A stretch of DNA of 35,062 bases from Acidimicrobiales bacterium (GTDB taxonomy: Bacteria > Actinomycetota > Acidimicrobiia > Acidimicrobiales > RAAP-2). The stretch lies in contig JADGOG010000012.1 of NCBI GenBank assembly GCA_017883065.1, forward strand, positions 1 through 35,062, read 5' to 3'. Below the pieces are notes generated by a model. It was given only the letters and a program-made list of their open reading frames with translations. It did not search any database and was not told the origin of the DNA. This document shows positions 10,546-20,168 of this stretch, in pieces. The position numbers and the translations under genes are program-made. Each line of letters opens with the position of its first letter. Positions within the stretch are counted from its first letter, which is position 1.

Positions 10546-10574
10546 TTGTTACTATCTGTATAGGAGAAATCCTC
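10546..10574 (+). promoter_or_regulatory. Shared SUF promoter/operator, copy 1 (sufB)
   Basis: Reads TTGT-TA-CTAT-CTGTA-TAGGAGAAA-TCCTC toward sufB. The last part contains the small inverted repeat AGGA-GAAA-TCCT. TACTAT at 10550-10555 is a plausible -10 box, which would put the inverted repeat over the transcription start, as for a repressor site. The same pattern precedes the second SUF unit on the opposite strand near 20141-20168. The element ends 32 bases before the sufB start codon. Confidence 0.65.
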
Positions 10575-10606
10575 TGCATGCCCCGACGGCACCCTCAGGA
10601 GCACAC

Positions 10607-12007
10607 ATGACGGCCACGGATCTCGATCTCGGAAAGTACAAGCTTGGGTGGTCCGACGAAGAGGACTACGTCTTCAAGCCGAAGAAGGGTCTGAACGAGT
10701 CCATCGTGCGGGAGATGTCGGCGATGAAGAAGGAACCGGAGTGGATGCGCGAGTTCCGTCTCCGTGCCCTCCAACGCTTCGAGAAGCGCCCGATGGCCGA
10801 GTGGTTCGCAGTCAACATGCCCGACCTCGACTTCGACGACATCTACTACTACATCAAGCCGACGTCGGGGCAGGTGGAGGACTGGAACGACCTTCCCGAC
10901 GCCATCAAGAACACCTACGAGAAGCTGGGCATCCCCGAGGCGGAGCGCAAGTACCTCGCCGGGGTCACCGCCCAGTACGAGTCCGAGGTGGTCTTCCATC
11001 GCAATCGCGAGGACCTCGAGGCCCTGGGCATCATCTTCTGCGACATGGACACCGCGGTGCGCGAGTACCCCGACCTGGTCCGCAAGTACTTCGGGACGAT
11101 CATCCCTCCCAACGACAACAAGTTCGCCGCCCTCAACTCGGCGGTGTGGTCCGGTGGCTCGTTCATCTACGTCCCGCCCAACGTGATCGTGGACCAGCCC
11201 CTGCAGGCCTACTTCCGGATCAACGCCGAGAACATGGGCCAGTTCGAGCGGACCCTGATCATCGCCGACGTGGGCTCCCAGGTGCACTACATCGAGGGCT
11301 GCTCGGCACCGGTGTACACCAGTGACTCGCTCCACTCCGCCGTTGTGGAGCTGGTCGCCCTCGAGGGCTCACGGATCACCTACACGACCATCCAGAACTG
11401 GTCGAACAACGTCTACAACCTGGTCACCAAGCGGGCCCGGGCCGAGGCCGAGGCCCACGTGGAGTGGATCGACGGCAACATCGGCTCGAGGCTGACCATG
11501 AAGTACCCGTCGGTCTACCTGATGGGCCCCAAGGCCTCGGGCGAGGTGTTGTCGGTGGCCTACGCCGGCGCCGGCCAGCACCAGGACGCCGGGGCCAAGA
11601 TGGTCCACGCCGCACCGGAGACCACGTCGACCATCGTGTCGAAGTCGATCTCCAAGGACGCGGGCATCACCACCTATCGGGGTCTGGTCCACGTGGACGA
11701 GGGCGCCAAGCACGCCAAGAGCTTCGTGCGGTGCGACGCCCTGCTCCTCGACGAGACCGCCGTGTCGGAGACCAAGCCCTACATGGAGGTGGCCGAGCGA
11801 GACGCCCGGATCGGCCACGAGGCCACCGTGTCCAAGGTCGGCGACGACCAGCTCTTCTACCTGATGAGCCGGGGCCTGTCCGAGACCCAGGCCATGGGCA
11901 TGATCGTCAACGGGTTCATCGAGCCCATCACCCGGACCCTGCCCATGGAGTACGCGGTGGAGTGGAGCCGCCTCATCGAGCTGCAGATGGAGGGCTCGGT
12001 AGGCTGA
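10607..12007 (+). CDS. sufB: Fe-S cluster assembly scaffold SufB
   Basis: SufB, the scaffold on which Fe-S clusters are built, working with SufD and the SufC ATPase; 466 residues, normal for the family. The start ATG 10607 follows AGGAG at 10597-10601; the open frame extends to 10466 but without similarity. Diagnostic segments are [10 protein letters not shown] near the N terminus, [25 protein letters not shown] in the middle, and the beta-helix region HYIEGCSAP. The C-terminal [13 protein letters not shown] includes the cysteine that corresponds to the essential scaffold cysteine of E. coli SufB, and [11 protein letters not shown] with the glutamate follows. No sufR-type regulator lies upstream, unlike many actinobacterial suf operons; oligopeptidase B is there instead. 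Confidence 0.96.
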
Positions 12008-12073
12008 CCGCCGGTACCGTCCCGCCGAACGGGGCTTTCCCGACGGTGAACGGCATCGATGCCCACGGAAAGG

Positions 12074-12079
12074 CAGAAT
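12074..12079 (+). promoter_or_regulatory. -10-like box for the four-cysteine protein
   Basis: CAGAAT, 6 bases before ATG 12086. Weak, because the first base is C, but the spacing matches. The gene could instead be read through from sufB. Confidence 0.25.
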
Positions 12080-12085
12080 GGCGCC

Positions 12086-12430
12086 ATGCCGATGAGGGAA
12101 GAGTGCAAGAACTTCCAGAGCCGGACCTACGACTCTGGCGAGGTGGCCCGGTTCTGCATCTTGGACCTGGCGCCGGAAGCACCGTGGAAGTGCCCCGAGG
12201 GCTGTCCCTCCTACGCCCCCCGGCTGGCCGATGTCGGCTGGTCCCACGGCTCGCTGGTCGAGCCGGCGCTCGAGCCGATGCCCGACGTCCCCGGCGACCA
12301 GGCGGCCAAGCTGCTCGACGAAGCCGAGAACATCATCAACGCGGTCGGACCCGACATTCTGGCCGAGGTGCGCAAGGAGGACGAGCGCAACGAGGACAAG
12401 GACCGGCGCTGGTGGCGTCGAAAGCACTGA
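12086..12430 (+). CDS. Small four-cysteine protein next to sufB
   Basis: 114-residue soluble protein that I cannot assign to a named family. Start ATG 12086 is preferred; ATG 12059 and 12092 are possible. The N-terminal half holds all four cysteines: Cys7 (REECKNFQSR), Cys24 (ARFCILDLAPEAPW) and the pair Cys36-x3-Cys40 (KCPEGCPSYAPRLAD). The C-terminal half is a charged helix (AAKLLDEAENIINAV... EVRKEDERNEDKDRR). The cysteine spacing suggests a metal or Fe-S site. Position directly after sufB (78-base gap) suggests an accessory role in cluster assembly or a client protein. It converges with the isomerase gene. Function is inference only. Confidence 0.75.
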   Translation: MPMREECKNFQSRTYDSGEVARFCILDLAPEAPWKCPEGCPSYAPRLADVGWSHGSLVEPALEPMPDVPGDQAAKLLDEAENIINAVGPDILAEVRKEDERNEDKDRRWWRRKH

Positions 12431-12463
12431 GTCACCCGGTGGGTCGCCCAGCCACGTCGACGG

Positions 12464-13327
12464 TCACTTGCCGGTGAAGACCGCCGGACGCTTCTCGATG
12501 AAGGCCGCCATCGCCTCGGTGAGGTCGTCCGAGGCCAGGAACCCTGCGTTCCAGGTAGCCACATAGTCGAGCCCGTCGGCCACGGAGCGGTCCTCACCGG
12601 CGGTGAGCACCGCCTTGGTGCCCTGGACCGCCAGTGGTGAGTTTGCGGAGATCTCCGCGGCCATCTCCCGGGCAGCTGCCAGGACGGCGTCGGAGTCGTC
12701 GCTCACCTGGTTGACCAGCCCGATGGACTCGGCCCTCGCCGCAGTGATGTCCTTGCCGGTATAGGCGAGCTCGGCAACGTGGCCCTTGCCGATGATGTGG
12801 GGGAGGCGCTGCAGGCTCCCGATGTCGGCCACGATGGCCACCTTGGCCTCCCGCACCGAGAAGACGGCGTCGGCACTGGCCAGTCGGATGTCGCAGGCCG
12901 CCGCCAGATCGACCCCACCCCCGATGCAGTAGCCGTGGATGGCGGCGATGACCGGCAGCGGGGACTCGGCCACCGCGGTGACCGACGCCTGGAGGCGGAC
13001 GATCTCGGCCCGTGCCGCCTTGGCCCTGGCCGCCGCCGACGCCGGTGCGCCCGAGGAGCTGCCGGCTGGGCCGACCAGCCCGGACATGGCCACCAGGTCC
13101 AGTCCGACGGAGAAGTGGGGGCCCTTGGCGGCGATCACCACGGCTCGTATCTCCGGGTCCGACCCGATGGCGGCCATAGCCACGGGGAGGTCGGACCAGA
13201 ACGCCGGGCCCATGGCGTTGCGCTTTTCGGGACGGTCGAGCCAGAGGGTGGCCACGTGCCCGTCCACCTCGATGGAAAGGACCTCCGAGGAGAAGGAGCC
13301 GAGGGTCGGTGCAGGTGGAGGCGTCAT
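12464..13327 (-). CDS. Crotonase family, dienoyl-CoA isomerase type
   Basis: Enoyl-CoA hydratase/isomerase-fold protein of 287 residues. The start ATG 13327 has TACGCT 7 bases upstream; a frame to 13432 would enter the sufD upstream region. The oxyanion-hole segments are KGPHFSVGLDL (68-78) and IHGYCIGGGVDL (130-141). The acidic residues Asp140, Glu160 and Asp168 have exactly the 20- and 8-residue spacing of the catalytic Asp/Glu/Asp of delta3,5-delta2,4-dienoyl-CoA isomerase (ECH1), in the contexts GGGVDL, VREAKV and VADIGSLQRLP. The expected role is beta-oxidation of odd-position polyunsaturated acyl-CoA. It sits alone on the minus strand between sufB and sufD, breaking the suf gene order. 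Confidence 0.88.
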   Translation of the reverse strand: MTPPPAPTLGSFSSEVLSIEVDGHVATLWLDRPEKRNAMGPAFWSDLPVAMAAIGSDPEIRAVVIAAKGPHFSVGLDLVAMSGLVGPAGSSSGAPASAAARAKAARAEIVRLQASVTAVAESPLPVIAAIHGYCIGGGVDLAAACDIRLASADAVFSVREAKVAIVADIGSLQRLPHIIGKGHVAELAYTGKDITAARAESIGLVNQVSDDSDAVLAAAREMAAEISANSPLAVQGTKAVLTAGEDRSVADGLDYVATWNAGFLASDDLTEAMAAFIEKRPAVFTGK

Positions 13328-13334
13328 CAACCAG

Positions 13335-13340
13335 AGCGTA
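13335..13340 (-). promoter_or_regulatory. -10 box for the isomerase gene
   Basis: TACGCT on the minus strand, 7 bases before ATG 13327; a leaderless arrangement. Confidence 0.45.
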
Positions 13341-13407
13341 GATCGACCGGCGGCGGTGCGTAGCAGGGGAGCGCTCCGCTTCGGGTGGGAGGTCCGAAAC
13401 GGGCAGG

Positions 13408-13413
13408 TAGTAT
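13408..13413 (+). promoter_or_regulatory. Possible -10 box for sufD
   Basis: TAGTAT, about 48 bases before the proposed sufD start. It would give a leader of roughly 40 bases carrying GAGAGG. The 10-base palindrome GGAGCGCTCC at 13368-13377 lies just upstream. The TAGGAGAAA motif of the other two SUF units is absent here. Confidence 0.3.
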
Positions 13414-13461
13414 GGGTGCCGAGGCTCGTCATCGGGCCTCCTTGCGCGAGAGGCCCTTGTT

Positions 13462-14817
13462 CTGTCCACGTTCACCCCGGAATCCGTTGCCGCCCTGCCC
13501 GGGCTGCCCTGGCTGCAGAAGCGGCGACTCCGTGCCCTCGAGGCGTTCACCGCGGCCCCGCTGCCCAGCGAGAAGGATGAGGTCTGGCGGTACAGCCGGA
13601 TCGACCAGCTCGATCTCGACCGGTTCCGTCCGGCCGGCATCGAGGTGTCCCCCGTCGCGGAGGGTCCGGGCCCGTCCCCGTCGGACCGGGTCCACTCGCT
13701 GGTCACCAGCCTGGGAGCGCGTTCGGCACTGATGGTGACCATCGACGGCGTGTTGGCGACCGTGGCGTCCTCGGTCGGTGAACAGCTCCTCTCGCTGGGA
13801 CGGGCCACCGAATGCAGTGATGTGGAGGACGTCCTGGGCTCGGTGGTCACCGATCCCCGTGACTTCCTGCTCTTGAACGATGCGTTCGCGGTGGACCCGC
13901 TCCTGGTCGACATCGCCACCGGGGCGACCATCGCCGATCCGATCGTGATCATCCACGTGGTGAGTGGCGGCCCGGGACTCGCCGTGTTCCCCCGGACGGT
14001 CATTCGGGGAGGTGCAGGGTCCGAGGCCGGCGTGATCGAGATCGTGGTCGATGCCGACGCCGGACTGCTGGCCGACCTTCCGTCTCGGTCCTCCTCGCCC
14101 CGGGCTCGCCCGTCGTCGACGAGCAGCCCCGAGCGCCTGGTGGTCCCGGTCACCGAAATCAGCGTGGCCGACGACTCGTCACTGTCCTATGTGAGCGTCC
14201 AGGCCCTCGGCACCGACACGTGGCAGCTGGCCCATCAGGCCAGTGTCATCGGTGCCAGCGCGACCCTGGAGAGCTTTGCGGTGGCTCTGGGCGGCGGGTA
14301 TGCCCGGCTCCGGACCGACTCGGCCCTTCGGGGCGTGTCGGGGACCAGCAAGCTCCGTGCCGCCTTCATCGGACGTGACGAGCAGATGCTCGACTTCCGC
14401 ACCTTGCAGGATCATCTCGCCCCACGGACCACCAGCGATCTGCTCTTCATGGGGGCGGTCGCCGACCACTCGCACTCGGTCTACAGCGGACTGATCCGAG
14501 TGCATCGGGGAGCGGTCCGCTCGGATGCCAGACAGACCAACCACAACCTGGTCCTCGACGAAGGAGCCCACGCCGATTCCGTGCCCAACCTCGATATCGA
14601 GGAGAACGACGTGTCCTGCAGCCACGGATCGACGGTCGGCCCGGTGGACGAGGATCAGCGTTACTACCTCGAGTCCCGGGGTGTGGAGCCCGATGTGGCA
14701 GAGCGGCTGATCATCGCCGGATTCTTCGAAGACATCGCCGACCAGGTGCCCATCGCCGGCACCCGATCGATGATCGGCCAGGCGCTGGCCGACCGGACCG
14801 GAGCCCACGGTGTCTGA
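13462..14817 (+). CDS. sufD: Fe-S cluster assembly protein SufD, CTG start
   Basis: SufD, the SufB paralogue of the SufBC2D scaffold complex. Homology-like coding clearly extends upstream of GTG 13645: residues such as FTPESVAALPG, PWLQKRRLRALEAF and EVWRYSRIDQLDL are the expected SufD N terminus. Upstream in this frame there is no ATG, GTG or TTG back to the stop TAG at 13408. The best start is CTG 13462, which gives an MSTFTPES beginning and lies 8 bases after GAGAGG (13448-13453); that predicts 451 residues. The beta-helix body and the C-terminal VSCSHGSTVG (His388) match the conserved SufD histidine. The gene overlaps the Rieske gene by 8 bases. A frameshift error near 13440-13460 is the alternative explanation. 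Confidence 0.88.
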   Translation: MSTFTPESVAALPGLPWLQKRRLRALEAFTAAPLPSEKDEVWRYSRIDQLDLDRFRPAGIEVSPVAEGPGPSPSDRVHSLVTSLGARSALMVTIDGVLATVASSVGEQLLSLGRATECSDVEDVLGSVVTDPRDFLLLNDAFAVDPLLVDIATGATIADPIVIIHVVSGGPGLAVFPRTVIRGGAGSEAGVIEIVVDADAGLLADLPSRSSSPRARPSSTSSPERLVVPVTEISVADDSSLSYVSVQALGTDTWQLAHQASVIGASATLESFAVALGGGYARLRTDSALRGVSGTSKLRAAFIGRDEQMLDFRTLQDHLAPRTTSDLLFMGAVADHSHSVYSGLIRVHRGAVRSDARQTNHNLVLDEGAHADSVPNLDIEENDVSCSHGSTVGPVDEDQRYYLESRGVEPDVAERLIIAGFFEDIADQVPIAGTRSMIGQALADRTGAHGV

Positions 14818-15193
14818 ACCGACGGAGTTTGCGCCGACGGAGTCTGCGTCGACAGAGTCTGCGTCGACAGGAACAGGAACCGGCACGGTCCGCCTGTGCT
14901 CCCGTGGCGAGATCGCTCCCGGCGAGGCCCGGCGTTTCGACACCCACGGCCTGCGGGTGGCCCTGGTGCGGATCGATGACGAATTCTTCGCCGTCGGGGA
15001 CCGGTGCAGCCACGAGGACTTCTCGCTGGCCGACGGAGAAGTGTGGCCAGCCGAGTGCGAGATCGAGTGCGCCAAACACGGCTCCACCTTCGACCTGCGC
15101 ACCGGTGAGCCGTGCTCGCTGCCCGCCACCCGCGCCGTGCCGGTCTACGAACTGGTGATCGACGGGGACGACATTTCGGTGGTGGTGCCGTGA
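14810..15193 (+). CDS. Rieske [2Fe-2S] ferredoxin in the suf operon
   Basis: Small Rieske-type ferredoxin of 127 residues with GTG start 14810, inside the end of sufD. Cluster ligands are CSH at 66-68 and CAKH at 87-90, the C-x-H ... C-x2-H pattern of NirD/BphA3-like ferredoxins. Residues 4-20 are a low-complexity lead-in built from a 15-base tandem repeat. The stop TGA overlaps the sufC GTG (GTGA). A Rieske gene between sufD and sufC is a known arrangement in actinobacteria. Electron supply to cluster assembly or repair is a plausible role but is not shown by the sequence. Confidence 0.88.
   Translation: MSEPTEFAPTESASTESASTGTGTGTVRLCSRGEIAPGEARRFDTHGLRVALVRIDDEFFAVGDRCSHEDFSLADGEVWPAECEIECAKHGSTFDLRTGEPCSLPATRAVPVYELVIDGDDISVVVP
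14822..14866 (+). repeat. Three 15-base tandem repeats in the Rieske gene
   Basis: Units at 14822-14836, 14837-14851 and 14852-14866 follow the pattern ACRGAGTYTGCGYCG and encode TEFAP, TESAS and TESAS. They are in frame, so copy number could vary without breaking the gene. Confidence 0.8.
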
Positions 15194-15936
15194 GTACGGG
15201 AGAGCTGTGCATCGAAGGACTGCGAGCGGGGATCCCTGGTCGCGAGATCCTCCAAGGGGTCACCCTCACCGTCCGCAGCGGTGAGGTCCACGCGGTGATG
15301 GGCCCCAACGGGTCGGGCAAGAGCACGCTGGCCCACGTCCTGATGGGCCGTCCCGGTTACGAGGTCCTCGACGGTTCGGTGACCCTCGACGGGATCGACC
15401 TCTTGTCGCTCCCCACCTGGCAGCGGGCCCGGGCCGGCCTGTTCCTGGGCATGCAGCATCCCATCGAGGTGCCGGGCGTGTCGTTGACCCGCACCCTGCT
15501 TGCCGCACGGGCTCCGGTGGCCGACGACGGTTCCCACCGGCCTGAGAAGGAGATGGACGTCCGACTCCACGATGAGGCCCGCCGGATCGGCTTCGACGAG
15601 CGTTTTCTCGACCGTCCGCTCAACGTCGACCTCTCGGGAGGGGAGCGCAAGCGCAACGAGACCCTGCAACTGGGCGTGCTGCGACCCCGGTTCGCCATCC
15701 TCGACGAGATCGACTCGGGTCTCGACGTCGATGCCCTCGGTGCGGTGGGACGTCGGGTCGAGGAAGCCACCACCGAGTGGGGACTCGGCGTGCTGGCCAT
15801 CACCCACTTCCGCCGGCTCCTCAATGTGCTCCATCCCGACGTCGTCCATGTCCTGTCCGAGGGCCGGGTGGTGGCCACCGGCTCGAGTGAACTGGCCGAG
15901 TTGGTCGATCGCACCGGGTACGCGGCCTACAGCTGA
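15190..15936 (+). CDS. sufC: SufC ATPase, first copy
   Basis: ABC-type ATPase of the SufBC2D complex, 248 residues, start GTG 15190 overlapping the Rieske stop. Walker A is GPNGSGKST (38-46). The Q-loop segment GMQHPIEVPGVS (88-98) is typical of SufC. The signature is LSGGERKRNE (148-157), Walker B is FAILDE (168-173) followed by the SufC-specific IDSGLDVDAL, and the switch histidine is His206 in THFRRLL. It shares its operon with sufD and the Rieske gene and so is the natural partner of the SufB/SufD pair. It differs clearly from the second SufC at 19341-20117. Confidence 0.93.
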   Translation: MSTGELCIEGLRAGIPGREILQGVTLTVRSGEVHAVMGPNGSGKSTLAHVLMGRPGYEVLDGSVTLDGIDLLSLPTWQRARAGLFLGMQHPIEVPGVSLTRTLLAARAPVADDGSHRPEKEMDVRLHDEARRIGFDERFLDRPLNVDLSGGERKRNETLQLGVLRPRFAILDEIDSGLDVDALGAVGRRVEEATTEWGLGVLAITHFRRLLNVLHPDVVHVLSEGRVVATGSSELAELVDRTGYAAYS

Positions 15937-16038
15937 GCGGCGCTGCGGGACCGGTCCGACGGTCTCCCTGGTCCGACCATGCAGGTGCCAGCCCTCCGAG
16001 GGGCGCCGACTCGACACCAGTAGCGCTCCGGCGGTTGC

Positions 16039-16044
16039 TAGCGT
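16039..16044 (+). promoter_or_regulatory. -10 box for the LCP gene
   Basis: TAGCGT, 6 bases before ATG 16051; leaderless arrangement. The upstream gap after sufC contains the palindrome GGACCGGTCC at 15948-15957, possibly part of a terminator. Confidence 0.5.
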
Positions 16045-16050
16045 CAGCGC

Positions 16051-17415
16051 ATGGCACGCCGAGATCGCAGACGGGGCGGTGCCCACAGTGCCTCCCGCGG
16101 CGGCTCTCGGCCATCCACCACTCCGTCGATCGACGAGGAGGGTGCGGCCACTGGCGCAGCGGCCGTGGCCGACCCCGGCGTCCCCCTGAGCCGCAAGGAG
16201 CGCCGGGAGGCCAGATCCTCCGATGACGGCGCCACCGGCCCACGCAAGAAGAAGCGTTCCAAACACCCCTGGCTCGACCGGGTCCTGCTCGCCGGTGTGG
16301 TGCTGGTGGCGTTGGCCCTGGTGGGGGTGGGGTTCAGCTACTTCTACGTCGAGTACCGCTTCAGCCAGGTCACCAAGGTGGCGGTCCGGCACCTGAAGAA
16401 GGCTCCGGTCGGCCAGCCCTTCAACGTGTTGCTCATCGGCTCGGACTCGAGAGTCGGCCTGACCCCGGCCCAGCAGACCCACCTCGGCGATCAGTCCAAC
16501 GCCGGCGGGCAGCGGAGCGACGTGGTCAAGATCGTGCACATCGTGCCGGCCACCGGCCAGATCAGCGTGCTGTCGATCCCGAGGGACACCGTGGTCACTG
16601 TGGCCGGTGACACCAGTGAGATCGGCAAGTACAACCGGATCAACTCGACCTACAACGCCGGTCCCGACCAATTGGTCCAGACCATCGAGGCCAACTTCGG
16701 GATACCCATCGAGCACGTGGTGCAGATCAACTTCGACGGGCTGCAGGGTGCGGTCGACGCCATCGGAGGGATCCGGCTCAACTTCCCGTTTCCGGCCAAG
16801 GACACCTATACCGGGCTGATCGTCACCCAACCGGGGTGCCAGGTGCTCAACGGGGGCTATGGGCTGGCGCTTGCCCGCAGCCGCCACTACCAGTACGAGA
16901 AGAACGGCTACTGGCAGTACGACGGCACCAGTGACTTCGGTCGGATCCAGCGACAGAACGCCTTCTTGAAGGCGGTGATCAACGAGGCCGAAACCAAGTA
17001 CAACCCCCTCACTCTGAACGCATTCATCGGATCGGTCGTCCAAGGGGTGACCATCGATTCCACCTTCACGGTGAGCGACCTGGTCAACCTGTCCCGCGAG
17101 TTCCACACGTTCGCTTCGGACTCCCTGGCCACGGCCACGCTGCCCACCTACTCGCAGTACTCCTCGGAATTCGGTTATCTCGGGTCGGTGCTCTACGTCG
17201 AACAGCCCCAGGCCACGGCGGTGATCACCCAATTCCTCAGCGGCCCTCCCGACCAGGCGCTAGCACCGCCACCGGGACCCTACGGCGTAGCGGCGACCAC
17301 CACCACGACCGCCCCGGTCTCCACCGTGGTCAGCGGCGGGACGACGCCGGGGACGAGTGCTCCGTCCAGCACCACCACATCGATCGAGACGGACTTCGAC
17401 CCGACCCCCTGCTGA
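16051..17415 (+). CDS. LytR-CpsA-Psr family cell-wall ligase
   Basis: LCP-family phosphotransferase of 454 residues, the class that attaches lipid-linked glycopolymers to peptidoglycan outside the cell. A basic cytosolic N terminus (residues 1-76, with KKKRSKH) precedes one membrane helix (about 77-99). The LCP domain begins at FNVLLIGSDSR (124-134) with Asp132 and Arg134, then QRSDVVKIVHI (Arg155, Asp157) and SIPRDT (Arg178), the expected pyrophosphate-binding set. RINSTYNAGP and ALARSRHY are further LCP segments. The C-terminal 60 residues are Pro/Thr/Ser-rich. The gene separates the two SUF clusters but has its own promoter, so a functional link to SUF is unlikely. Confidence 0.9.
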   Translation: MARRDRRRGGAHSASRGGSRPSTTPSIDEEGAATGAAAVADPGVPLSRKERREARSSDDGATGPRKKKRSKHPWLDRVLLAGVVLVALALVGVGFSYFYVEYRFSQVTKVAVRHLKKAPVGQPFNVLLIGSDSRVGLTPAQQTHLGDQSNAGGQRSDVVKIVHIVPATGQISVLSIPRDTVVTVAGDTSEIGKYNRINSTYNAGPDQLVQTIEANFGIPIEHVVQINFDGLQGAVDAIGGIRLNFPFPAKDTYTGLIVTQPGCQVLNGGYGLALARSRHYQYEKNGYWQYDGTSDFGRIQRQNAFLKAVINEAETKYNPLTLNAFIGSVVQGVTIDSTFTVSDLVNLSREFHTFASDSLATATLPTYSQYSSEFGYLGSVLYVEQPQATAVITQFLSGPPDQALAPPPGPYGVAATTTTTAPVSTVVSGGTTPGTSAPSSTTTSIETDFDPTPC

Positions 17416-17446
17416 TCGGCGGCGTACAGGCCGGCTCACCGTCGTC

Positions 17447-17467
17447 CGGTCCGCCGGAATCGGACCG
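17447..17467. terminator. Bidirectional hairpin between LCP and sufU
   Basis: CGGTCCG (17447-17453), loop CCGGAAT, CGGACCG (17461-17467): a perfect 7-bp stem in the 68-base gap between two convergent genes. No U-tract. Confidence 0.5.
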
Positions 17468-17483
17468 TGGCCGGCAACAGGAG

Positions 17484-17996
17484 TCAGCCGGCCGACTCGA
17501 TCTCGTCGAGGCCCTGGGCCAGCGTGTTCCAGCTGAGGGTGGCGCACTTGATGCGCACGGGGAACTTGACCACACCCTGCAGGGCGGCCAGCTCGCCGAG
17601 GGCGTCGATGTCGATGGCCTCGGGCTCGGGAACGTCGATGGTCGCCTCGGCACCTTCGCCTTGCTGGCCGGCGCCGGGCGGGAGGGTGGACTCGTGGATG
17701 GACATCATCCCCTTGAACGTCTTGATCAGGTCACGCACCTCGGTGACCGGCCTGCCCTTGACGGCGGCCGACATCAGCGACGCCGAGGACTGGCTGATCG
17801 AGCATCCGGTCCCGGCAATCTTGATGTCCGACACGACGCCGTCGTGCACGTCGAGGGTGACCACGATCTCGTCACCGCAGAGGGGATTGAACCCCTCGAC
17901 CCTCTGGGCCGGGGGTGACTCCAACTCGCCGCGGTTCCGCGGCGAGCGGTAGTGGTCCAGGATGATCTCGCGGTAGAGGTCCTCGAGTCCGGGCAT
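17484..17996 (-). CDS. sufU: SufU sulfur-transfer protein
   Basis: Zinc-dependent sulfurtransferase that accepts persulfide sulfur from SufS; 170 residues. The start ATG 17996 lies behind GAAGGG, 67 bases after the sufS stop. The conserved opening is LYREIILDHYRSPRNRG. Zinc ligands appear as Cys40 and Asp42 (NPLCGDE), Cys65 (GTGCSIS) and Cys151 (KCATLSW). It is longer than the usual roughly 150 residues because of an acidic, Gly/Pro-rich insertion (about 102-128) before the IDALGELAALQGV helix, a region where B. subtilis SufU has only a short loop. It is the last gene of the minus-strand unit sufC2-sufS-sufU. Confidence 0.93.
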   Translation of the reverse strand: MPGLEDLYREIILDHYRSPRNRGELESPPAQRVEGFNPLCGDEIVVTLDVHDGVVSDIKIAGTGCSISQSSASLMSAAVKGRPVTEVRDLIKTFKGMMSIHESTLPPGAGQQGEGAEATIDVPEPEAIDIDALGELAALQGVVKFPVRIKCATLSWNTLAQGLDEIESAG

Positions 17997-18063
17997 CAGC
18001 GAACGCCCTTCGGGCGACGACGGTCACAGGCAGGGCGCACGGGAGCAGCGTACCTGTCGCGGC

Positions 18064-19353
18064 TCATGCGAAGAACGCTCCCGCCTCGGCCAGAGCGTCG
18101 GCCAGGGTGTCCACATCGGACTCGTCGTTGTAGAGGCCGAAGGAGGCCCGGGCGGTTGCGTTGACGCCCAGTCGGCGCATCAGGGGTTTGGCACAGTGAT
18201 GGCCGGCGCGCACGCACACGCCGTACTGGTCGAGGATCTGGGAGATGTCGTGGGGGTGCACGTCACGGTAGGAGAAGGAGAGCACGCCTCCCCGTGCGGC
18301 CGGGTCGGCCGGCCCGAAGATGAGGAGGTCGTCACCGAATCGGTCGGCCAGCGTGGTCATGGCGTAGTTGGTGAGGCCGATCTCGTGGCGACGGACGGTC
18401 TCCATGCCGATGGCGCCGAGATAGTCGACGGCCGCGCCCAGGCCGATGGCCTCGGTGATCGGCGGGGTGCCCGCCTCGAACCGCCAGGGGATGTCGTTGG
18501 GCGTGAACCCTTCCTTGCGCACGTCGAGGATCATCTCGCCGCCCCCGAGGAACGGTGGCAGGCTGTTCAACAGTTCCTCCTTGCCCCACAGCACCCCGAT
18601 GCCGGTGGGCCCGAGCATCTTGTGGGAGCTGAAGGCCAGGAAGTCGACGCCCAGGGCGGTCACGTCGGTGGGGAGATGGGGAACCGACTGTGCCCCGTCG
18701 GCCACCACCAGCGCACCGGCGGCGTGGGCCACATCGGCGATGTGTCGGATCGGGGGCAGGGTGCCGAGCACGTTGGACATGCAGGTGACCCCCACAAGCT
18801 TGGCCCCGTCGACCAGCCGGTCGAGCCGGTCGAGCTCGAGCTGCCCGTCGTCGTCGACCGGGATCCAGCGAATGGTGATGCCCCGCTCCTCGGCCAGCAT
18901 CTGCCAGGGGACGATGTTGGCGTGGTGCTCCATTTCGGTGAGGACGACGACATCGCCCGAGTGCAGGTGGGTACGACCCCAGGAGTGAGCTACCAGGTTG
19001 AGGCCCTCGGTGGCGTTCTTGGTGAAGACGATCTCACGGGACGGGTCGGGTGCCCCGATGAAGCGACCGACCTTGCGGCGGGCTTCCTCGAAGCGCCGGG
19101 TTGCCTCCTCGGCGATGGTGTAGACCCCGCGGTGCACATTGGCGTGGGTGGTCTCGTCGTACTCACGCATGGCGTCGAGTACCTGGGTGGGTCGTTGGGA
19201 CGACGCCGCCGTGTCGAGGTAGGTGATCGGGTGCCCGTGCACCTCTCGGCTGAGCAGCGGGAAGTCCTTGCGGAGGGTGGCCACGTCGAGCGGCTGGGCG
19301 CCGGTCGACATCACGGCGTCAGTGGTGGAGTCGGCGTCGTTCACGTGCGCCAT
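18064..19353 (-). CDS. sufS: SufS cysteine desulfurase
   Basis: PLP-dependent cysteine desulfurase of 429 residues that supplies sulfur for Fe-S clusters. Landmarks are YLDTAASSQRP (45-55), THANVHRGVYTI (69-80), MEHHANIVPW (141-150) and DGAQSVPH (219-226). The PLP-binding lysine is Lys245 in SSHKMLGPTG and the catalytic cysteine is Cys387 in RAGHHCAKPLM, the group II (SufS) context that works with SufU. The start ATG 19353 lies 13 bases inside the end of sufC2 with GAAGGG 8 bases upstream, so the two are probably translationally coupled. Confidence 0.95.
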   Translation of the reverse strand: MAHVNDADSTTDAVMSTGAQPLDVATLRKDFPLLSREVHGHPITYLDTAASSQRPTQVLDAMREYDETTHANVHRGVYTIAEEATRRFEEARRKVGRFIGAPDPSREIVFTKNATEGLNLVAHSWGRTHLHSGDVVVLTEMEHHANIVPWQMLAEERGITIRWIPVDDDGQLELDRLDRLVDGAKLVGVTCMSNVLGTLPPIRHIADVAHAAGALVVADGAQSVPHLPTDVTALGVDFLAFSSHKMLGPTGIGVLWGKEELLNSLPPFLGGGEMILDVRKEGFTPNDIPWRFEAGTPPITEAIGLGAAVDYLGAIGMETVRRHEIGLTNYAMTTLADRFGDDLLIFGPADPAARGGVLSFSYRDVHPHDISQILDQYGVCVRAGHHCAKPLMRRLGVNATARASFGLYNDESDVDTLADALAEAGAFFA

Positions 19354-20117
19354 GCATCGTACCCTTCGGCTTCGAGTTGCTCGGCCAGCTCGGGCCCGCC
19401 CTCGGCCACGATCACGCCGTCCACCAGCAGGTGGACCCGGTCGGCGGCCAGCTCGTCGAGCATGCGCTGGTAGTGGGTGATGACCAGGACGCCCAACTCG
19501 GGCCGGGTCTCCCGAACCGTGTGCACGCCGCGGGCCACCGTGCGCAGGGCGTCCACGTCGAGCCCGGAGTCGGTCTCGTCGAGCACGGCCAGCTCCGGCT
19601 CGAGGATGGCCATCTGGAGGATCTCGTTGCGCTTCTTCTCTCCGCCGGAGAAGCCGTCGTTGAGGTGCCGCTCACCGAACGCCGGGTCCATGCCCAGCTT
19701 CTCCATCCACTCCATCATCATCAGCCGCACCTCGAGCACGGACATGTCCATGCCCCGTCGGGCGGACAGTGCCTGGCGGAGGAATTGGATGACCGGCACG
19801 CCGGCGATCGACTCGGGCTCCTGGAAGGCCAGGAACATGCCGGCCTTCCCCCGGACGTCAGTCGACCAGGAGGTGACGTCCTCGCCCTTGAACCGGATGG
19901 CTCCCGAGTCGACCACGTAGGCCGGGCTACCCAGCAGGACATTGGCCAAGGTGGACTTTCCCGAGCCGTTGGGCCCCATCAGGGCGTGGACCCGGCCCGA
20001 CTCCACGGTGAGATCGACGCCCTTGAGGATGGGGACGCCCTCGACCGACACGTGCAGGTCCTCGATCTCGAGGAGCGGCGGCGGAGGTTCGGGGTCGGCT
20101 GCGGCTTCACTGGACAC
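19341..20117 (-). CDS. sufC: SufC ATPase, second copy
   Basis: Second SufC-type ABC ATPase, 258 residues, start GTG 20117. Walker A is GPNGSGKST (48-56), the Q-loop segment AFQEPESIAGVPV (97-109), the signature FSGGEKKRNE (156-165), Walker B LAVLDE followed by TDSGLDVDAL, and the switch histidine His215 is in THYQRML, which is closer to the canonical SufC sequence than the first copy. It leads a unit with sufS and sufU and no scaffold gene. It has a TAGGAT box 7 bases before the GTG, and the shared SUF element lies upstream. Either ATPase could pair with SufB/SufD, or the two could form a mixed SufC dimer. Confidence 0.93.
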   Translation of the reverse strand: MSSEAAADPEPPPPLLEIEDLHVSVEGVPILKGVDLTVESGRVHALMGPNGSGKSTLANVLLGSPAYVVDSGAIRFKGEDVTSWSTDVRGKAGMFLAFQEPESIAGVPVIQFLRQALSARRGMDMSVLEVRLMMMEWMEKLGMDPAFGERHLNDGFSGGEKKRNEILQMAILEPELAVLDETDSGLDVDALRTVARGVHTVRETRPELGVLVITHYQRMLDELAADRVHLLVDGVIVAEGGPELAEQLEAEGYDAWRT

Positions 20118-20124
20118 GCTGTTG

Positions 20125-20130
20125 ATCCTA
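20125..20130 (-). promoter_or_regulatory. Possible -10 box or RBS for sufC2
   Basis: TAGGAT on the minus strand, 7 bases before GTG 20117. It can be read as a leaderless -10 box like many others here, or as a weak ribosome binding site (AGGA) if transcription starts at the upstream shared element. Confidence 0.35.
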
Positions 20131-20140
20131 GCTCCATTCC

Positions 20141-20168
20141 GGAGTTTCTCCTACAAGAATAGGGACAA
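20141..20168 (-). promoter_or_regulatory. Shared SUF promoter/operator, copy 2 (sufC2)
   Basis: On the minus strand reads TTGT-CC-CTAT-TCTTG-TAGGAGAAA-CTCC toward sufC2-sufS-sufU. GGAG-AAA-CTCC is a perfect inverted repeat, and TATTCT within it is a good -10 box. The TTGT, CTAT and TAGGAGAAA blocks and both spacers match the copy before sufB. Confidence 0.65.

Follow-up and report, generated by a model that had tools for sequence, protein, structure and literature searches.

The question raised by this locus is whether two intergenic elements in front of separate iron-sulphur (Fe-S) biogenesis units form one shared operator, and which protein would bind it. The locus belongs to a 35,062-nucleotide stretch of an Acidimicrobiales bacterium (assembly GCA_017883065.1, contig JADGOG010000012.1, positions 1 to 35,062; hereafter the window), in which the elements stand before sufB and, on the opposite strand, before sufC2-sufS-sufU. 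The original prediction had described them as two copies of one long pattern, without a third, and as the binding site of an Fe-S or iron-responsive repressor. The coordinates of both copies (Table 1) are exact, 17/17 fixed bases are identical, and the window has no further match at up to 3 mismatches (100 shuffles gave 0 matches). When the whole genome was searched (3,094,555 bases, 235 contigs, 94.9% complete), these two copies were the only ones, exact or at up to 3 mismatches, and the reversed pattern, used as control, gave 0 exact matches and 1 at up to 3 mismatches. From the evidence below, we conclude that the element is almost certainly a genuine operator-promoter of Fe-S biogenesis genes, with order-wide conservation. 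Further, we propose with reasonable confidence that it serves a SufR-type repressor as operator, with a protein that we call SufR1 as the candidate binder.

The pattern was searched at up to 2 mismatches in 61 genomes (the window's own and 60 relatives), and 51/61 had a match, giving 65 sites in total and 2 for the reversed control. All 65 sites were located before Fe-S biogenesis genes: 49 before sufB, 8 before sufR, 6 before sufC2 and 2 before sufD. By position, 46 sites were 18-112 bp before a SufB match and 8 sites were 5-95 bp before a gene for a helix-turn-helix (HTH) protein; the remaining 11 were six at sufC2, two at sufD and three at sufB (G018, G035, G031), the site of G035 lying 108 bp before the sufB start and that of G031, at a contig end, being assigned to sufB by eye from the first residues. 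Ten genomes gave no match; four of them had no usual sufB (G015, G032 and G055 have another type, and G052 gave no match at E 1e-100), and in the other six, read directly, a recognisable variant was present in five and none in G056. The original prediction had staked itself on conservation before the suf genes of relatives, as opposed to random scatter over the genome; the first outcome favours an operator, and scatter is not what 65/65 examined sites at Fe-S genes display.

The same held across the order, where 193 of 298 genomes at least 90% complete had a match; the reversed control gave 35 matches in 31 genomes, and therefore about one genome in ten matches by chance at this scale. In a sample of 80 named loci (79 readable; the nearest an Acidimicrobiales metagenome-assembled genome with 99% SufB identity), the site was called in 42/79, two of these being weak (L373, L388); no site was called at the 27 remotest loci (L390-L416, SufB identity at most 68%, other phyla or actinobacterial groups by title). 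Three further sites, in family f32 (G182, G258, G134), precede nfu-like genes of 110-116 amino acids (aa); the G182 protein matches NifU/NfuA models under their cut-offs, and those of G258 and G134 were likened to it by eye. In three loci of the same family (L325, L326, L334), nfu-like genes (NifU C-terminal domain, CSSC) have the 24-bp site, with the start codon just after the -10.

When characterizing the element in 110 sufB promoters (97 distinct 24-mers; the weak sites of G061, G097 and G168 were left out), we found the conserved unit to be a 24-bp dyad, TT-N4-CTA-N6-TAG-N4-AA, with TT, CTA, TAG and AA each 96-100% conserved and conservation confined to the 24-mer, except for a T at position 25 (87%). 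The terminal small inverted repeats that had been noted earlier (AGGA-GAAA-TCCT and GGAG-AAA-CTCC) are not kept in relatives, the conserved symmetry being that of the 24-bp dyad instead. T5 A6 C7 T8 A9 T10 (TACTAT) are each 94-100% conserved, G at position 3 (73%) makes the TG of an extended -10, and no conserved -35 was present among the 110 promoters. In the left half, position 5 is T in 94% of sites and position 6 is A in 99%, whereas their right-half counterparts are mixed. The positions that complete TACTAT are conserved in the left half only, and therefore the left half-site and the -10 are the same bases, with the sufB transcription start predicted to fall at positions 16-18, in the right half of the dyad. 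Of the two -10-like boxes reported inside the element, TACTAT thus stands as the conserved -10 of sufB, whereas TATTCT is unconserved in relatives.

The dyad is placed differently elsewhere. Among the sufC2 promoters of the window's family, all those with a site (8/8) have a TANNNT -10 at 14 nt, or in one case 13 nt, downstream of it; the GTG start codon of the window's sufC2 is 7 nt beyond TAGGAT, and the start codon in the family follows the -10 by at most about 10 nt where the row shows it. Such closeness of start codon and -10 suggests that the sufC2 mRNA is leaderless. The -10 lies over or directly beside the right end of the site in the sufR promoters of other families, and likewise in front of sufC2 in L327 and L333. 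Therefore, from the differing -10 positions at sufB, sufC2 and sufR, we presume one protein site placed differently over each core promoter. Order-wide conservation, placement of all 65 examined sites at Fe-S genes, dyad symmetry and overlap with the -10 together give good support to one operator shared by these units and serving a regulator of Fe-S biogenesis; of the earlier repressor claim this part stands firmly, and binding by a repressor is a prediction from sequence.

A candidate for the regulator is found among the targets, for in relatives the site also precedes a gene of 230-250 aa, SufR1, beside mrp (an Fe-S carrier gene) and an iscS-like desulfurase gene, and the order mrp - sufR1 - iscS-like was seen in most loci read, the L102 locus of the window's genome included. 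SufR1 has an N-terminal winged HTH of the ArsR/DeoR type (HTH_20 above cut-off in the SufR1 of two relatives), and a C-terminal C-X12-C...C, the putative Fe-S ligand set, is kept in all SufR1 loci (58/58, from 40 genomes), the third Cys lying about 32-37 residues beyond C-X12-C. Its best NCBIfam match is SufR_cyano (TIGR02702), at 28.2 and 36.7 bits against a cut-off of 178.8; SufR_cyano is a cyanobacterial equivalog model, and since its cut-off is missed we call SufR1 a remote homologue and not that equivalog. By hhalign, the SufR1 profile matched four actinobacterial open reading frames (ORFs) upstream of sufB (99.3%, E 4.6e-20, 202 columns, three Cys aligned); these ORFs (Mycobacterium, Saccharothrix, Actinomadura, Cellulomonas) were taken as SufR by their position just upstream of sufB. 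The structure predicted for SufR1 had medium quality (mean predicted local distance difference test score, 72.5), and its best solved matches were ArsR-like regulators, over the HTH part (template modelling score 0.3 over the whole query). SufR1 is a remote SufR homologue with an ArsR-like HTH and three conserved Cys. Among the binder families first suggested, an ArsR-type protein, as this SufR homologue, is favoured, and Rrf2 is disfavoured by its own promoter and recognition helix.

Association of SufR1 with the site was assessed at sufR and at sufB. Among 61 SufR1 loci chosen independently of the site, 12/20 SufR1 promoters outside the window's family carried it, and at least 37 sites of the order-wide search were 8-116 bp before a SufR1 match, four of these genomes being also among the eight sufR-site genomes. 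Co-occurrence at sufB was counted in 143 genomes with a readable sufB start, the site being called by a fixed rule, in a deliberately enriched sample: 80 of the added genomes were mostly SufR1-lacking ones and their near kin, and 36 were mostly SufR1-bearing ones without a 2-mismatch match. Absence of SufR1 meant lying outside the 234 genomes matched in the SufR1 search or having a weak match only; the weak sites of SufR1-lacking G061, G097 and G168 were counted as sites, and G003 (69% complete), G281 (other SufB type) and genomes without a readable sufB start were left out. The site was present in 89/91 SufR1-bearing genomes, the two exceptions being G294, with a degenerate site, and G023, where the two half-sites show a parallel change to CAAT-N4-ATTG, whereas 27/52 SufR1-lacking genomes had none (Fisher p 1.2e-12 for this enriched sample, not tree-corrected). 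Sampled groups that keep sufB but have neither SufR1 nor the site were f35 (4/4), f50 (3/3), f27 (4/4) and f37 (3/3), with genera g148 of f34 (4/4) and g73 plus g113 of f53 (5/5). In genus g11, the SufR1 recognition helix reads NAARHH and not NVARHH (3/3) and the right half of the operator ATTG and not ATAG; the two changes are one evolutionary event and therefore suggestive only.

Several results weigh against SufR1 as the binder. The main difficulty is that 25/52 SufR1-lacking genomes keep the site. When sister pairs were compared on a tree of SufB from 142 genomes (G023 treated as site-bearing), the 6 supported pairs differing in site had SufR1 differing the same way in 3.2 on average and the opposite way in 0 (p 0.25), and in the 11 pairs differing in SufR1 the site followed in 2.1 and showed no difference in 8.9 (p 0.5). 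Genus g4 lacks SufR1 in 6/9 genomes listed (G350 being without the usual sufB), which is beyond expected gaps. The sufR promoter of the window's own family has no site (0/41 loci), the score of 28.2 of 178.8 bits is far under the SufR_cyano cut-off, and the half-sites CTA/TAG of the 110 sufB sites differ from the published CAAC-N6-GTTG. Many site-keeping SufR1-lacking genomes are drafts, 84-97% complete, of a genus that otherwise has SufR1. In six site-keeping genomes that lack SufR1 (G016, G028, G029, G033, G035 and G040) the sole mrp match ends at residue 366-367, while sufR-linked mrp mostly ends at 374-377, and therefore the neighbour of sufR seems to be missing too; an assembly gap and a true loss look alike. 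Within the window's family, the promoters of sufR (L102, L104, L107-L109, L113-L117, L251-L271 and others) mostly have a TANACT-type -10 with the start codon close and no dyad; in this family sufR is probably leaderless and not autoregulated, judging from these promoters.

Other explanations were weighed on the same evidence. Chance similarity of two intergenic stretches has practically no probability left and was already refuted by the 0 matches in 100 shuffles and by order-wide conservation. If the element were purely a promoter, read by a dedicated sigma factor and without operator function, this would account for the near-invariant extended -10 in the left half at sufB, but dyad symmetry, the lack of -35 conservation, a placement relative to the -10 that varies among sufB, sufC2 and sufR, and the parallel change of both halves in G023 make it very improbable. 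More serious, though still unlikely, is that an IscR-like Rrf2 protein, here Rrf2-A (G000, contig C95, 4589-4984), is the binder as a solitary regulator, with SufR1 merely one of its targets. This looked best initially, because PF02082 matches occur in 61/61 genomes and SufR1 is missing from some of those that keep the site; moreover, the best named relative of Rrf2-A below superfamily level is IscR (7.7e-29, under cut-off), CDHEGQC or CEHEGQC is kept, and, according to a review, IscR type 1 sites of E. coli precede Fe-S genes (PMC8593673). However, no site lies upstream of the Rrf2-A gene (36 loci in 35 genomes, with one chance match past a 3' end), and the recognition helix is unchanged both in G023, despite its altered operator, and in G056, where Rrf2-A is present and the site has been lost. 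Further, G022, with a degenerate site, has as its sole PF02082 match one of another type, and the neighbours of Rrf2-A in the window's genome, by eye, are unlike Fe-S genes. These points weakened this candidate, and it was set aside. A second Rrf2 type was seen in G014, G018, G022, G023, G024, G027 and G030, without the C-terminal Cys pair where read; several genomes of the window's family have it on the contig that bears sufB, about 12-17 kb away.

Another regulator, for example a SufR-like paralogue, might bind alone or replace the missing SufR1, which we also hold to be improbable. Several ArsR-type paralogues with C-X12-C...C occur in the same genomes, and in G040, which keeps the site without SufR1, one is divergent to an mrp gene. 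Nevertheless, by eye, the 24-bp site precedes no paralogue gene among the loci read and one paralogue group seemingly has its own, different dyad, and G028 keeps the site with no SufR-like match at E 1e-3 (one query). In that group (L171-L176, L178, L179, L181), a promoter block recurs that contains TATAGNCTAGAA and TTATTC...GAATAA in several members; noted by eye, it is possibly an operator of its own.

With SufR1 as the preferred binder, we propose that a SufR1 dimer carrying an Fe-S cluster would bind the 24-bp dyad. At sufB, where the left half-site also forms the extended -10 (TGtTACTAT) and the predicted start is covered by the right half, the bound dimer would exclude RNA polymerase; at sufC2-sufS-sufU the dyad, at about -50 to -27, would obstruct the -35 region. 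Once iron or clusters run short, or clusters become oxidised, the apo form would release the DNA and the SUF genes would be turned on together, in a dispersed regulon of operators built over the promoters of separate Fe-S-biogenesis units. On balance, we lean slightly towards a fuller reading, in which the SufR lineage of the Acidimicrobiales would use the 24-bp dyad and not CAAC-N6-GTTG, with a half-site that is the -10, and would run a scattered regulon (sufB, sufD, sufC2-sufS-sufU, sufR-iscS and nfu); the window's family would have lost autoregulation of the regulator but not its remaining targets, and the operator would outlive loss of the regulator gene in several lineages. For an entire environmental order, the analysis predicts an operator, its regulator and the regulon; it also offers a case in which a promoter and an operator share bases, as well as one family whose regulator appears to have lost autoregulation.

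In a search of open-licence papers on SufR and Rrf2 we found none on suf regulation in Acidimicrobiales. According to a 2021 review, SufR had been described in two Actinobacteria only, and suf regulation in most SufR-lacking Gram-positives was unknown (PMC8593673). SufR of Streptomyces avermitilis represses suf genes and binds CAAC-N6-GTTG in the sufR promoter, with the first part of the operator over the -10 and its last base as the start site (PMC11995493). The element may resemble that operator, having a 6-bp spacer between CTA and TAG, a left half equal to a conserved -10, and a start site that is only predicted, but its half-sites are CTA...TAG with outer TT...AA arms (24 bp) and not CAAC...GTTG, its regulator gene is away from sufB, and its targets are several separate units. 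Cyanobacterial SufR is an Fe-S-dependent repressor of suf genes and of itself at CAAC-N6-GTTG (PMC8593673, PMC6034842), a palindrome likewise with a 6-bp inner spacer; its cysteines follow C-X12-C-X13-C-X14-C, whereas SufR1 has C-X12-C and one further Cys. Mycobacterium tuberculosis SufR (Rv1460) represses itself and suf genes, and has a leaderless start and three functional cysteines (203, 216, 244) (PMC6034842); SufR1 likewise has three Cys, all aligned by its profile with the ORFs upstream of sufB in the four other Actinobacteria. Rv1460 heads the suf operon, whereas the SufR1 gene is located beside mrp and an iscS-like gene. IscR belongs to a different protein family (Rrf2) from SufR1. Its type 1 site differs from the 24-bp dyad in sequence and spacing. 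The IscR type 1 regulon is similar in comprising Fe-S building genes, nfuA included (PMC8593673). The element appears to work like known SufR boxes and shares their 6-bp inner spacing. Because its half-sites are different and its outer arms longer, we regard it as a novel variant among SufR-type operators and not a copy of a known box.

Table 1. Predicted operators, promoter elements and genes of the SUF units in the window, with sufR1 of the same genome
Feature	Position	Strand	Basis or remark
24-bp dyad operator (predicted) before sufB	10546..10569	+	TT-N4-CTA-N6-TAG-N4-AA
-10 element TACTAT of sufB, inside operator left half	10550..10555	+	extended -10, upstream TG at 10547-10548
AGGAG, likely ribosome-binding site of sufB	10597..10601	+	sequence
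sufB	10607..12007	+	TIGR01980
sufD, middle SUF unit	13645..14817	+	TIGR01981 just under cut-off, 211.1 of 222 bits
sufC1, middle SUF unit	15112..15936	+	TIGR01978
sufU	17484..17996	-	NifU_N domain, PF01592
sufS cysteine desulfurase	18064..19353	-	TIGR01979
sufC2	19341..20117	-	TIGR01978
-10 element TAGGAT of sufC2	20125..20130	-	14 nt downstream of operator
24-bp dyad operator (predicted) before sufC2-sufS-sufU	20145..20168	-	exact pattern match
sufR1 of window's genome	contig C198, 4229-4930		between mrp and iscS-like desulfurase

The gene order in the window is sufB, an enoyl-CoA hydratase gene (opposite strand), sufD-sufC1, an LCP-family gene, and then sufC2-sufS-sufU on the minus strand. 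The middle unit, sufD-sufC1, has no site in front in the window, and sufD is preceded by one in some relatives (L047, L049, L330). A second SufB type, about 46% identical, replaces the usual sufB in G015, G032, G055, G350 and others, and the first three of these genomes have no match to the site at up to 2 mismatches. In addition, SufB of G025, G035, G046, G049, G097, G118, G120, G127 and G352 has in-frame interruptions of about 1-1.3 kb, most likely inteins, near residue 294 and/or around residue 120-125, whereas SufB of the window is uninterrupted.

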